NCBI GenBank assembly: GCA_000990005.1
Contig: LBPF01000010.1
Location: forward strand, 1 to 43,756
Reading direction: 5' to 3'
DNA: 43,756 bases
Source of the DNA: Candidatus Woesebacteria bacterium GW2011_GWB1_33_38
GTDB taxonomy: Bacteria > Patescibacteriota > Microgenomatia > UBA8517
The notes under the pieces: model-generated
Databases searched by the model: none
What the model was told of the DNA's origin: nothing
The model's input: the letters and a program-made list of their open reading frames with translations, nothing else
Position numbers and translations under genes: made by a program
Shown here: positions 825 to 8,639 of the stretch, piece by piece
Layout: every line of letters starts with the position of its first letter
Numbering within the stretch: position 1 is the stretch's first letter

Positions 825-882
825 CTTGAGAGTATAATACCACCAATAACAACGTTTGTAATTATCTGATATGATTTGCTTA

Positions 883-1145
883 TGCAAACAAAAGTATTAG
901 ATTATAGAGTAATAGTTGAACCAGAAAATTATCCTAATGGGGACAAGGTTTATAATGCTTATTGCCCCACTCTTGGTATTGCAGATTATGGAGATACCAT
1001 AGAAGAAGCTTTATCTAGTTTAAAAGATGGAATTGAACTTGCTGTTGAATCATTGGCTAAAGAAAAAGCCGAAATACCGTCTGATAACATCACTGATCAA
1101 ATTGTTACACAAACACAAGTTCAATTTCCAATTGCTTTTGCTTAA
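883..1145 (+). CDS. hicB: HicB-like antitoxin
   Basis: YNAYCPTLGIADYGDTIEEALSSLKDGIELAVESL is HicB-like; ATG at 883 lies 6 nt after TGATATGAT. Confidence 0.8.
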
Positions 1146-1148
1146 AAT

Positions 1149-1364
1149 ATGCCCAAACTGCCAAGGAATATTAAACCAAAAATCTTGTTGAGGTGTCTAA
1201 AATCAAAAGGTTTTATTGAAATTGGGGAAAAAGGATCGCACGTCAGATTAAAACACAAGGATGGCAGATGGACACAAGTTGCAGTTCATGCAAAACCAAT
1301 TCCACGAGGAACTTTAAGAAAAATATTAAATCAATCCAAAATTGATATTAGAGATCTGATTTAA
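1149..1364 (+). CDS. hicA: HicA-like mRNA interferase toxin
   Basis: KGFIEIGEKGSHVRLKHKDGR...VAVHAKPIPRGTLRKIL typical HicA; directly follows hicB. Confidence 0.85.
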   Translation: MPKLPRNIKPKILLRCLKSKGFIEIGEKGSHVRLKHKDGRWTQVAVHAKPIPRGTLRKILNQSKIDIRDLI

Positions 1365-1560: not shown

Positions 1561-1944
1561 ATGTCTAAATCTGCCAAAATCAAGGCTAAAATATATTATG
1601 ATGACTGGCGAAAGGAAAAAACATATTCTCCAGCGTTAAAGAAAAATATAAACATCACGCTCAAGGGATGGAGGCACATAACAGGAGACGATCAGTATAA
1701 GAAAAGGGTTTTTAATGACGTTTATAGAAGATTAAAACTACTACCTTCTGCAAAATTTATTATCAAAAAATCATCTACCATCCAAAGCGTCAGAGTTAAA
1801 AATAGCATTAAATATTTTGCTTTAGAAGCGGTTGTACCTGTCAAAATAAATAAATCCAAAACTTTACGTATTGTTAAGGTAATAATTCAGGAAGATAAAA
1901 TTGGAAATTTAGTATTCCTATCTGTGATGGATAAAAAAAGCTGA
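1561..1944 (+). CDS. Small basic protein, possibly a BECR-fold (Barnase-EndoU-ColicinE5-RelE-like) nuclease
   Basis: 127 aa; ITLKGWRHIT and C-terminal beta pattern are suggestive only. Extended -10 TGATATAAT at 1545-1553. Confidence 0.4.
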   Translation: MSKSAKIKAKIYYDDWRKEKTYSPALKKNINITLKGWRHITGDDQYKKRVFNDVYRRLKLLPSAKFIIKKSSTIQSVRVKNSIKYFALEAVVPVKINKSKTLRIVKVIIQEDKIGNLVFLSVMDKKS

Positions 1945-2012
1945 ACGCCTCACACTTAGGTCAATAAATTGACGTTAGCGTCATAAAGAGTAAAAACTCT
2001 TTCGTTCAGCAA
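1933..2012 (-). ncRNA. Candidate structured minus-strand RNA ending in a U-tract
   Basis: Outer stem GCTGAACG (1940-1947)/CGTTCAGC (2003-2010), inner hairpin AAAGAGT-AAAA-ACTCTTT (1985-2002), alternative hairpins GTCAA-TAAA-TTGAC and GACG-TTAG-CGTC; minus strand runs into TTTTTTT; upstream TTGACA-17-TATCAT. Confidence 0.45.
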
Positions 2013-2032
2013 AACTATGATATTATAAACAT

Positions 2033-2158
2033 ATGCATATGTCAAGATTAACAAAAAAAATTAGTTTAATTCTTCTTTCTTCTCTCTTAATTCTTAATTC
2101 AGCAGCTATGTCACTGCTAGCTGCCGAGCTCACCACCCCCACATCAAGTTGGTCCTAA
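2033..2158 (+). CDS. 41-aa leaderless mini-ORF, truncated copy of the VirB6-like signal peptide
   Basis: MHMSRLTKKISLILLSSLLILNSAAMSLLAAELTTPTSSWS*; shares the TSSW nucleotide block with 3127-3294 and the virB6 5' end. Confidence 0.5.
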   Translation: MHMSRLTKKISLILLSSLLILNSAAMSLLAAELTTPTSSWS

Positions 2159-2189
2159 ATTGCAATTTTAAATCTGCTATACTTTTTTC

Positions 2190-2654
2190 ATGCCTGCCAA
2201 AGTAAATAAAGTTTATATTGAAAACAGTGTTTATATTAAAGAATTTGACAAATGGATCAATAAAAAGAAGTTTATTCATAACAAACAATCTCTTCCCCCG
2301 TTTTTTAAAGAAAGAGATATTTGGTGGGCATCAATCGGAATAAATGTTGGCTTCGAAGAGGATGGAAAAAATGACAACTTCGTTCGACCTGTTTTGATTG
2401 TTAAAAAATTTAACAATGAGATATTCTTAGGTGTCCCTTTAAGCACAAAGTTAAAAGATAATAAATATTATATTCAGATATCTGTTACAGATAAAACGGT
2501 TTCAGCCTTAATTTCCCAACTTAGAGTTCTTAGTTCAAGAAGAATTTGGAATAAACTAGCTGAGCTCGACAAGGGAGATTATTCGATAGTCTTAACAGAA
2601 ATTAAAAACCTTTTTATTTTGCCCTTCCTGCCTAAGCAAGAAGGTCGTGGCTAG
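2190..2654 (+). CDS. MazF/PemK-like toxin, copy 1
   Basis: FFKERDIWWASIGINVGFEEDGK...RPVLIVKKFNNEIFLGVPLSTKLK...SQLRVLSSRRIWNKLAELD is MazF/PemK-like. Confidence 0.75.
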   Translation: MPAKVNKVYIENSVYIKEFDKWINKKKFIHNKQSLPPFFKERDIWWASIGINVGFEEDGKNDNFVRPVLIVKKFNNEIFLGVPLSTKLKDNKYYIQISVTDKTVSALISQLRVLSSRRIWNKLAELDKGDYSIVLTEIKNLFILPFLPKQEGRG

Positions 2655-2734
2655 TGCCAATTTGATTACTATGTTATTATAAATATACGCATTTGTCAAG
2701 ATAATTAATAATTAAGAATTAACAGTTAAGAAAT

Positions 2735-3117
2735 ATGCAAACACAAAATAACAAAAAAAAGATATAAAACAGAGAACTTTTGAATTTTCTTTAAAAATTA
2801 TTCAATTTATTTCTAAGTTACCAAATCAAAAAATTTATTGGTCGTTAGGAGATCAATTGTTACGCTCCGGAACAAGTATTGGTGCCAATATCATCGAAGG
2901 GCAAGGATCTTCTTCAAAAAAGGAATTTATTAATTTTATTAGAATTGCATTCAAAAGTGCAAAAGAAACAGAATATTGGTTGAAATTATTTAAGGAATCT
3001 AAATTAACTACCAATTCAGGACTTGATATCTTGGTTCAGGAATCCATAGAAATTACTAATATCCTAAATTCAAGTATACTAACCTTGAATGGTCAAATAA
3101 AAGTTAAGAAAGAATAA
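2735..3117 (+). pseudogene. Four-helix-bundle (23S rRNA IVP-like) protein split by a -1 frameshift in an A8 run
   Basis: Frame 2752-3117 encodes QKKDIKQRTFEFSLKIIQFISKLPNQKIYWSLGDQLLRSGTSIGANIIEGQ...; ATG at 2735 is out of frame, and one extra A in 2753-2760 restores it. Confidence 0.6.
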
Positions 3118-3126
3118 ATAATAAAT

Positions 3127-3294
3127 ATGCAAAAACAAAACGATATAAAAAGGTCTATAAATATTAAATTAAGTTTTGTTAAGAAGTTTGTTTTAATTCT
3201 TCTTTTTTCTTTCTTAATTCTTAATTCAGCAGTCATGCCGTTGCTGGCTGCTGAACCCCCCACCTCCACATCAAGTTGGTATAACCAAACATAA
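3127..3294 (+). CDS. 55-aa mini-ORF, second truncated VirB6-like leader copy
   Basis: MQKQNDIKRSINIKLSFVKKFVLILLFSFLILNSAVMPLLAAEPPTSTSSWYNQT*. Confidence 0.5.
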   Translation: MQKQNDIKRSINIKLSFVKKFVLILLFSFLILNSAVMPLLAAEPPTSTSSWYNQT

Positions 3295-3314
3295 ATTTCT
3301 GCTATACTTTTCTC

Positions 3315-3758
3315 ATGCCTGCCATAATAAATATTCATATTAAGAATTTCGATGGTTGGATAGAAAAGAAAAAAGAATATCACTTTCAAGAAAAACCTTC
3401 TCCAATGTTTAAAGAAAGAGATATTTGGTGGGTTTCAATTGGAATTAATATTGGATACGAAGAAGATGGAAAACATGACAAATTTTTAAGACCTGTATTG
3501 GTACTTAAAAAGTTTAATCGGGATTTGTTCTTGGGAGTACCAATGAGTACTAAAATTAAAAATAATCCCTATTATATAAAAGTAACAATAGCAGATAAAA
3601 CAGTTTCGGCTTTAATTTCTCAAATTAGAGTTTTTAGTGCTAAAAGAATCCAAGATAAATTGGCTGAACTAGATACAAACGATTTTAAAAATGTGAAAGA
3701 TGAAGTAATTAAGATGGTTTCTTTCTCCTCTCTGCCTAAGCAAAGAGGCCGTGGCTAG
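3315..3758 (+). CDS. MazF/PemK-like toxin, copy 2
   Basis: Paralogue of 2190-2654: FKERDIWWVSIGINIGYEEDGKHDKFLRPVLVLKKFNRDLFLGVPMSTK. Confidence 0.75.
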   Translation: MPAIINIHIKNFDGWIEKKKEYHFQEKPSPMFKERDIWWVSIGINIGYEEDGKHDKFLRPVLVLKKFNRDLFLGVPMSTKIKNNPYYIKVTIADKTVSALISQIRVFSAKRIQDKLAELDTNDFKNVKDEVIKMVSFSSLPKQRGRG

Positions 3759-3814
3759 TGCCAATTTGTGTTATGTTACAATAAATATATGAGCTTGTCA
3801 ATTAAAATATAAAT

Positions 3815-5443
3815 ATGAAAAAACTTGCCCTAATTATTCTTTCATTTGTTTTGTTTATTAATTCCCTTGCCTTGCCCTTAACCGCCCTTGCTGCCCCAAA
3901 TCCACCACCCCCCACCCCCACTTCAGCCCCCACCACCTCCACATCAAGTTGGTATGATCAAGATCCGTTTATGTGGTATTTAAAAGTTTTTGATTATAAA
4001 ACCTCTCCTGCATCAGAAATTTTTGGAGAAAGATATACAGCAGCACAGGTTCAATGGATTTTATATTCTGTGGGATGGGGAATAATTAATTTAGTTCCCG
4101 GAAATCCAGAAGCAATGGTTTGTCTGATAAATAAAGAGCCAACTGGAACTTGTCTTGATATAGTATTAAACACATTAAAAGAATTATTGAATCCATTAGC
4201 AACTAATTTAGATTCTAATACTGCTTATAAAAATCCACTCATTAATAGCATATTAAATAATCAGATATCTGGAGTCATATATGTAAAAGGAATATTAAGT
4301 AAATTTAGTTTAGTTAAAACAATAAATGCACAAGGTTATGGGTTTAATACTGGCGCTAATGCAGTACAAAAATTGTGGATAGCCACAAGAAACCTTAGTT
4401 ATACATTAATTGTTTTAGCTGTAATTGTTATGTCTTTTATGATTATGTTTCGAGTTAAAATTTCTCCTCAGATTGTGATTTCAGTTCAGTCGGCCTTACC
4501 GAATGTGATTTTTACAATAGTACTTATTACTTTTTCTTACGCTATAGCTGGTTTTGCTATTGATTTGATGTATGTGGTTATTGGATTAATTTCTCAGCTA
4601 CTTATTGCAAGCGGATTAACAAATTTATCTTTTGCTGATATGTTTGGTAGTCTTAATACTTCTTATGTTGGCGGAATGTTTTATCTTATGTATGCATATT
4701 GGGTAGCTTTTATGTATACAGCGGGTGTAGCTTTTTTTTCAAATTTAGCATCATTTATTTTAGGTATATTGATTTTTATCTTTTCTATAATTGCCATACT
4801 TGCAATTATATTCTGGTCAATAAAAATAATTTATGTTTTACTTAAAAACTTTGCTTTAATAATGCTTACAATTGCCATGGGTCCATTAGAAATTTTGGCA
4901 GGAGCTTTCACAGGTAAATTATCATTTGGTGGATGGTTTAGAAAACTACTTTCTTATTTAGCAGTATATCCTGTGATGGGTTTATTATTATTCTTTTCAT
5001 TTTTCTTTTTGTTCCAAGGTGGAAATGCTGATTCAAAATTTGCGTCCAGTGTATTTGGCAATCCGGCATATAATTATATAGGTAATAACACGTGGAGACC
5101 TCCTTTTTCTGGTTTCGCATTAGCAGACGATATTTTATGGGTAGTGGTTAGTTTTGTGGTATTTAGCAACATAACTAAAGCCTCAGAAATTATTCAGGCC
5201 GCAATCGCCGGCAAACCATTTGCTTATGGTAGCGCAATCGGTGAAGCACAAGCTCCAATTGCTGGTGGAAGTTTATATGGGCTCGGAAGAATTGCCGAAA
5301 ATAAATGGCCAGAACCAGTTAGATGGATTATGAGCAAAACCAAGAAAGGGGTTCGTCCTGTACCAGATGGGTGGGCTGACCTTGCTGATAGCATTAATAG
5401 GCCAATACAAACTGTTTCTGGAATTTTTAAAGGCAAGGGGTAA
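3815..5443 (+). CDS. VirB6/TrbL-like secreted polytopic membrane protein of a type IV secretion locus
   Basis: Signal peptide, Pro/Thr linker, many TM segments; linked to PrgI and VirB4 genes. Confidence 0.6.
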   Translation: MKKLALIILSFVLFINSLALPLTALAAPNPPPPTPTSAPTTSTSSWYDQDPFMWYLKVFDYKTSPASEIFGERYTAAQVQWILYSVGWGIINLVPGNPEAMVCLINKEPTGTCLDIVLNTLKELLNPLATNLDSNTAYKNPLINSILNNQISGVIYVKGILSKFSLVKTINAQGYGFNTGANAVQKLWIATRNLSYTLIVLAVIVMSFMIMFRVKISPQIVISVQSALPNVIFTIVLITFSYAIAGFAIDLMYVVIGLISQLLIASGLTNLSFADMFGSLNTSYVGGMFYLMYAYWVAFMYTAGVAFFSNLASFILGILIFIFSIIAILAIIFWSIKIIYVLLKNFALIMLTIAMGPLEILAGAFTGKLSFGGWFRKLLSYLAVYPVMGLLLFFSFFFLFQGGNADSKFASSVFGNPAYNYIGNNTWRPPFSGFALADDILWVVVSFVVFSNITKASEIIQAAIAGKPFAYGSAIGEAQAPIAGGSLYGLGRIAENKWPEPVRWIMSKTKKGVRPVPDGWADLADSINRPIQTVSGIFKGKG

Positions 5444-8027: not shown

Positions 8028-8390
8028 CTACTTTACGAATCTTGTATTTCCTTTTTTAATTACAATTAAACTTTTCTGATTTTGAATTAATTTTTTCAAG
8101 TTTTTGTCTAAAAATTGCTTCAATACAAAATTAACACTTTCAGGTGTTTGATTTTCAAGTCTTAAAACAATAATTCCTGTGCTACTTGATTCTTTTTGAT
8201 GATAAATTTCACCAAAGTCCAAATCAAAAGTAATTATTATTCTTTTCTCTTTTTTAGCTAATTTTATTATTTCTATGTCTTCTAAATAACCTAATCCTTC
8301 TTCTGTTATGCTCTTTGAATGATACCCACGCTGGTTTAGAAATCTTGAGGATATTGGAGATAAATTAGCATCAAGCAGAAATTTTATCAT
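8028..8390 (-). CDS. DUF5615-family PIN-like toxin
   Basis: MIKFLLDANLSPISSRFLNQRGYHSKSITEEGLGYLEDIEIIKLAKKEKRIIITFDLDFGEI. Confidence 0.8.
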   Translation of the reverse strand: MIKFLLDANLSPISSRFLNQRGYHSKSITEEGLGYLEDIEIIKLAKKEKRIIITFDLDFGEIYHQKESSSTGIIVLRLENQTPESVNFVLKQFLDKNLKKLIQNQKSLIVIKKGNTRFVK

Positions 8391-8402
8391 GAAATGTGAA
8401 CA

Positions 8403-8639
8403 TCATGCAAAACTAAATTTAATATTATTTGGAACAATTTCTTCTCTTTCAACAATTCCTTGTGCAAAATCAAGAGAAGCCTTAATATCTTCTTTTTTTA
8501 GAACTGGATAAGCTTTAATTATTTTGTCCATTGTGTAACCATTTTTGATTAAATTAAGAATTGTTGCTACAGCAATTCTAGTCCCATCAATTGTGGGCTT
8601 ACCAACATTTATTCGTACATCTGTTTTTATTTTTACCAT
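8403..8639 (-). CDS. DUF433-family antitoxin
   Basis: GKPTIDGTRIAVATILNLIKNGYTMDKIIKAYPVLKKEDIKASLDFA; TGATATAAT 6 nt upstream of ATG. Confidence 0.85.
   Translation of the reverse strand: MVKIKTDVRINVGKPTIDGTRIAVATILNLIKNGYTMDKIIKAYPVLKKEDIKASLDFAQGIVEREEIVPNNIKFSFA

Follow-up and report, generated by a model that had tools for sequence, protein, structure and literature searches.

The contig LBPF01000010.1 of Candidatus Woesebacteria bacterium GW2011_GWB1_33_38 (genome of 845 kb, 97% complete) was analyzed over 43,756 nucleotides (nt), referred to here as the window. The region directly upstream of a gene for a VirB6-like membrane protein in this window is probably a hotspot of self-contained cassettes, each of which would combine a ribonuclease (RNase)-type toxin gene that has its own promoter with a small structured RNA. 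This RNA would be transcribed head-on from a promoter of its own and end at or inside the 3' end of the toxin gene. Two MazF-like genes appear to be paired with a two-hairpin RNA and an LPD3-like gene with a three-way-junction RNA (Table 1), while short truncated copies of the virB6-like 5' end, the leaders, would be relics. Because no protein antitoxin gene accompanies these toxins, the RNA is most likely the antitoxin, and would either bind the toxin, as in type III toxin-antitoxin (TA) systems, or base-pair with the toxin mRNA at its 3' end, as in type I systems. A toxin without a protein partner next to a dedicated RNA would be most simply explained as an RNA-antitoxin pair. As judged from the genomes compared, the MazF-RNA pairing is conserved across Patescibacteria, a huge group of uncultured bacteria.

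Table 1. Features at the virB6-like gene of the window; RNAs and their promoters are predictions
Feature	Position	Strand	Description
LPD3-like (BECR-like fold) toxin-like gene	1561..1944	+	127 amino acids (aa); directly left of leader 1; no protein antitoxin seen
Three-way-junction RNA	1933..2010	-	P1 formed by GCUGAACG (2003-2010) with CGUUCAGC (1940-1947), then U7 terminator run
Promoter of three-way-junction RNA	2017..2045	-	TTGACA (2040-2045), 17-nt spacer, TATCAT (2017-2022); overlaps start of leader 1
Leader 1	2033..2158	+	5' part of virB6 from the signal peptide to TSSWS and stop, truncated; read as a relic
mazF1	2190..2654	+	PemK/MazF-like toxin gene with N-terminal extension; extended -10 of its own, TGCTATACT, directly ahead of ATG
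Small RNA (sRNA) 1	2613..2664	-	Hairpin A (GGC-ACUA-GCC); hairpin B (CCUUCUUGC-UUAG-GCAGGAAGG, 2623-2644)
Promoter of sRNA 1	2671..2699	-	TTGACA (2694-2699), 17-nt spacer, TAACAT (2671-2676)
Four-helix-bundle (23S IVP-type) gene	2761..3117	+	Between mazF1 and leader 2
Leader 2	3127..3294	+	Truncated virB6 5' end
mazF2	3315..3758	+	PemK/MazF-like toxin gene with N-terminal extension; extended -10 of its own ahead of ATG
sRNA 2	3717..3768	-	Hairpin A (GGC-ACUA-GCC); hairpin B (CCUCUUUGC-UUAG-GCAGAGAGG, 3727-3748)
Promoter of sRNA 2	3773..3801	-	TTGACA (3796-3801), 17-nt spacer, TAACAT (3773-3778)
virB6-like gene	3815..5443	+	Multiple transmembrane segments; locus resembling a type IV secretion system (T4SS)

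Two-hairpin RNA of the mazF genes

Both MazF proteins of the window score above the Pfam cut-off for PF02452, and the solved structures nearest to their fold are MazF/EndoA. They carry an N-terminal extension (KDFDxWNxxKK..IWW), and no conserved upstream open reading frame (ORF) that could encode a protein antitoxin was found for the homologues that share it, whereas many classical MazF homologues have an overlapping upstream antitoxin gene. Solitary MazF homologues elsewhere share a 3' end that extends past the stop codon. On the minus strand the layout consists of a sigma70 promoter, the sequence (A)CAAAU within about seven bases, hairpin A (GGC/GCC) and, separated from it by a short linker, hairpin B, which is variable and often followed by a U-run or a third hairpin.

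A strong minus-strand sigma70 promoter lies at the 3' end of 36 of the 43 N-extended mazF genes, compared with 6.1% of shuffled sequences and with 5/43 on the forward strand, and a convergent promoter is present at 1 of 14 classical mazF genes. When the N-extended genes of a later Pfam survey are taken alone, the promoter is found at 13/15 against the classical 1/14 (p = 2e-5, a value that, like the other p-values, overstates independence because the loci are related by descent). Stable UNCG or GNRA tetraloops are formed on the minus strand in 21 of 41 cases and on the other strand in 1 of 38, which points to the minus strand as the one that would encode the RNA. In hairpin A, 99% of cells are paired with 12 both-side changes, a level that none of 500 shuffles reached, and for hairpin B, 28 of 33 RNAs exceed their shuffles and 28 distinct stem sequences occur.

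Searches with the RNA model lead back to the toxin gene. Within the collected loci, essentially all strong matches lie at N-extended mazF genes, including the second mazF of locus L083, which was found via its RNA, and no convincing match was obtained at classical MazF loci. An exact-pattern scan returned one locus (L091), which also holds an N-extended mazF. When 192 genomes were searched with the RNA first, 8 of the 9 matches with E<=3.2e-5 had a convergent mazF, some of these sequences having been in the training set. Weaker matches without mazF (E>=1e-4) were set aside, since those inspected lie mostly in coding sequence and look like chance.

No Rfam 15 covariance model matched the window RNAs or the set of MazF loci (of the three-way-junction RNAs, the window copy only was scanned), and a known RNA family was rejected for lack of such a match. 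Several other candidates were also discarded: carriage of the MazF by viruses, since viral contigs contained no copy; a conserved short minus-strand peptide, for which no reading frame looked conserved by eye; and an ACA toxin cleavage motif at the start of the sRNA, which not all copies have. The conserved 3' tail GTGGCTARYGCCAATTTG is the complement of sRNA hairpin A, and its interpretation as a mobile-element end or integron-like site was rejected. A third N-extended MazF gene of the same genome stands on contig C14 (L034, 757-1158), at the start of a T4SS pilin cluster, and has a convergent promoter and a two-hairpin RNA with a GAAA loop.

Three-way-junction RNA of the LPD3-like gene

The protein encoded by the LPD3-like gene is linked to PF18798 (LPD3) by weak matches in six of nine homologues (best E 2e-5). 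Its predicted structure has a pLDDT of 91, and the best fold match of this model in the PDB is the contact-dependent inhibition toxin 6cp9 (E 8e-3, TM-score 0.43), which is compatible with a BECR-type RNase without proving one. The LPD3 domain is otherwise part of phage and conjugative polyvalent proteins, unlike the stand-alone genes with a three-way-junction RNA seen here, and the passages of PMC5512222 consulted give no function for it.

A convergent promoter is present at 24 of the 33 LPD3-like homologues, where 2.0 would be expected, and at none of the 33 on the forward strand. After trimming by eye to P1, 19 of 20 RNAs fold as a three-way junction, compared with 4% of shuffles. A model-based alignment of 11 sequences gives 16 both-side covarying cells in P1 and P3, as high as in 0 of 500 shuffles. 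On the full alignment RNAalifold recovers P2 only, owing to misalignment; the covariation of P1 and P3 comes from the refined subset model. An RNA-first search of 145 genomes gave five matches, three of them in the training set, and all five lie beside an LPD3-like gene. The window copy is a divergent member that the model missed, and it is assigned by its position, promoter, P1 and a core shared with loci L123, L124 and L133. Comparison across the homologous loci of both toxin families establishes the promoters, folds and strand of these predicted RNAs and their association with the toxins.

Leaders and turnover upstream of the virB6-like gene

An earlier note on this DNA had described the virB6-like 5' end, with promoter and signal peptide, as occurring three times, in alternation with MazF-like genes. 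The three copies are found where that note placed them, as ORFs of 41 aa (ending TSSWS) and 55 aa (ending TSSWYNQT) and as a full-length copy of 542 aa, TSSWYDQDPFMWYL, and a PemK/MazF gene follows each truncated copy. The two leaders align at 82% over 100 nt, the TSSW block recurs in all three copies and the two mazF genes align at 74% over 266 nt, a similarity that by alignment is far above chance. Other parts of the description needed revision. The third copy has a different signal peptide and shares mainly the TSSW block, and the alternation is interrupted by the four-helix-bundle gene. The repeat at 2014, 2668 and 3770, which had been taken for the virB6 promoter, forms a far better sigma70 promoter on the minus strand, so that the promoters of the convergent RNAs had been given to virB6 and the RNAs themselves overlooked.

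Comparison with G001, a genome of the same genus, bears on the history of this region. Leader 1 reads ATG GCC TAA in G001, where its reading frame is lost, and the G001 leader behind the four-helix-bundle gene is without the TSSW end. Window positions 2136-2218 and 2611-2704 match G001 at 88%, with the intervening mazF1 body missing there by internal deletion; positions 2701-3227, which hold the four-helix-bundle gene and the first half of leader 2, also match at 88%. The LPD3-like cassette (about 1526-2015) is absent from the corresponding position. Over 95 nt (3194-3288) leader 2 shares 94% identity with the start of the intact G001 virB6, and it is for this reason most simply explained as an old virB6 start severed by mazF2 and a new virB6 copy. 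The dead leader 1, the deleted mazF1, the missing LPD3-like cassette and the orthology of leader 2 with the intact virB6 start of G001 together support the earlier suggestion that the leaders are relics of repeated toxin-cassette insertion at one site. A misassembly, which had been considered as a source of the repeats, is unlikely because G001 is an independent genome with a matching neighbourhood.

The earlier note had also suggested that the leaders are expressed as secreted peptides. That selection maintains them as functional peptides, whether secreted or leader peptides, is highly improbable. Both ORFs are open and have a signal peptide, and dN/dS relative to the G001 virB6 is 0.30 for leader 1 and 0.65 for leader 2; these values are compatible with constraint inherited from virB6, from which any constraint on the leaders themselves is inseparable, and do not demonstrate current use. 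Against such a function, leader 1 has decayed and the TSSW end is missing from the other leader in G001, the region ahead of virB6 in the other relatives examined yielded no leader-like ORF that carries the WY motif, and each mazF is independent of its leader because its own extended -10 lies six bases before the ATG. The leaders are therefore not needed for mazF expression and, on the sequences compared, are best read as relics.

In the proposed sequence of events, the truncated leaders would be remnants of earlier virB6 copies, whose 5' ends broke off and stayed in place as cassettes entered, and a divergent virB6 allele would have come in at least once; we infer both the order and the mechanism of these insertions. 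Duplication of the leader-mazF unit in situ was rejected, and separate acquisition of mazF1 and mazF2 appears likelier, because mazF2 is closer to genome G045 than to mazF1 (69% versus 60%). SXT-type elements offer a lead, since they insert beside the 5' end of a gene and supply the target with a new 5' end, but no integrase or attachment site was found in the region studied here. In view of the differences from G001, in which the LPD3-like cassette is absent and an NYN-domain gene occurs instead, the region upstream of the virB6-like gene is, by its gene content, a hotspot of turnover and accessory genes. This NYN-domain gene (PF01936; L035, 10335-11020) is located behind yet another truncated virB6-like leader, and an NYN-like gene also sits between two mazF-sRNA units in L083.

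The virB6-like gene and other neighbours

Relatives of the virB6-like protein occur in 75 of 95 related genomes, but the protein has no Pfam match at E<=1, including to VirB6/TrbL. A neighbouring gene family resembles a T4SS pilin, below the Pfam cut-off, and the name VirB6-like, adopted from the earlier note, is a contextual one that reflects topology and locus. The protein is 37-41% identical to its G001 orthologue, whereas most other genes of the T4SS-like locus are 60-92% identical, a divergence that suggests allele replacement or diversifying selection.

The four-helix-bundle gene (2735-3117, +) seems to have lost its in-frame ATG because an A/G run differs by one base from that of the intact G001 copy (MQTQNNKKKDIKQRTF). 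A hicBA-like pair (HicA, PF07927, with a HicB-like partner) is found at 876-1364 (+), and its hicA is truncated in G001. Two adjoining ORFs at 8028-8639 (-) resemble, by eye, a TA pair of the DUF433/DUF5615 type.

Comparison with known systems and mode of action

The MazF modules share the toxin family PF02452 and its fold with the type II systems MazEF and PemIK, but instead of an upstream MazE-like gene they have an N-terminal extension and a convergent RNA, and an adjacent protein antitoxin gene is missing from the N-extended homologues. Like the type III systems ToxIN, CptIN and TenpIN, they would combine a MazF-fold endoribonuclease with a structured small RNA. The known type III RNAs are tandem repeats located upstream on the same strand, with a terminator between RNA and toxin (PMC5086642), whereas the RNAs described here are single-copy, downstream and on the opposite strand with their own promoter; an upstream co-transcribed repeat RNA is not seen. 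The layout is that of txpA/RatA and yonT/SR6 of Bacillus subtilis, type I systems in which an RNA with its own promoter runs head-on into the 3' end of the toxin gene, pairs there and triggers RNase III cleavage (PMC6562991). Those toxins are small peptides, in contrast to the RNase-fold proteins and the compensatory changes in RNA structure found here.

From the conserved association with toxins we infer that the RNAs act as antitoxins, and the choice between modes of action leans, tentatively, towards a type III-like one in which the active site of the toxin would be blocked by binding of the structured RNA, because covarying structures favour recognition of an RNA fold. Compensatory change maintains the structure, the MazF fold is also that of type III toxins of the ToxN family (PMC5086642), and several RNAs end at the toxin stop codon, leaving little antisense overlap with the reading frame; the single-copy, convergent arrangement remains at odds with known type III loci. 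A type I-like mode, in which the convergent RNA would anneal to the toxin mRNA at its 3' end and promote decay of that mRNA, has the B. subtilis layout in its favour (PMC6562991) and is the less likely of the two. Antisense pairing alone needs neither hairpin covariation nor stable tetraloops, and the toxins of type I systems are mostly small hydrophobic peptides. Judged from sequence, the RNAs would overlap the mazF 3' end or 3' untranslated region, and they reach into the ORF slightly or not at all. It is improbable that the only role of the hairpins is to terminate transcription (in one or both directions) or to stabilise the toxin mRNA through its 3' untranslated region. On the forward strand the GC hairpins precede AUUUGU, an arrangement that could indeed end the mazF mRNA, but such a role leaves aside the minus-strand sigma70 promoter that lies a few bases from the hairpins in 36/43 loci, the minus-strand U-runs after the hairpin in many copies and the stable tetraloops on that strand.

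Several points weigh against the interpretation of the cassettes as toxin-RNA antitoxin pairs entering a hotspot. One strong RNA match with a promoter (L185, 1501-1548) is convergent with a type I restriction methylase-like gene (hsdM) and has no mazF, a few N-extended MazF genes (L107, L115) are without a clear promoter, and the two MazF sRNAs of the window have no obvious terminator. The MazF promoter pattern was first seen in part of the set used for counting, although the later survey set agrees, and the three-way-junction RNAs were trimmed by eye. The apparent replacement of the virB6 allele could instead be rapid divergence. The toxicity of the proteins, its neutralisation and the RNA transcripts are predictions from sequence.

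Significance

No description of such convergent toxin-RNA pairs was found in the open-access literature. It is possible, and put forward tentatively, that they represent a distinct, undescribed kind of TA system of Patescibacteria, in which each of at least two RNase-fold toxin families, unrelated to one another, would be neutralised by a toxin-binding, single-copy convergent structured RNA, two-hairpin for the N-extended MazF and three-way-junction for the LPD3-like protein. If this is true, MazF, the textbook toxin with a protein antitoxin, would have exchanged that partner for an RNA throughout the candidate phyla radiation, and the same would hold, with a different RNA fold, for a second toxin-like family. 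Two new RNA families would be gained, each tied to an evident partner gene, small constructs in Escherichia coli would allow a direct test, and the promoters of such sRNAs could pass for those of an adjoining secretion gene. RNA antitoxins would then also occur in a vast lineage whose members are uncultured and have very small genomes.
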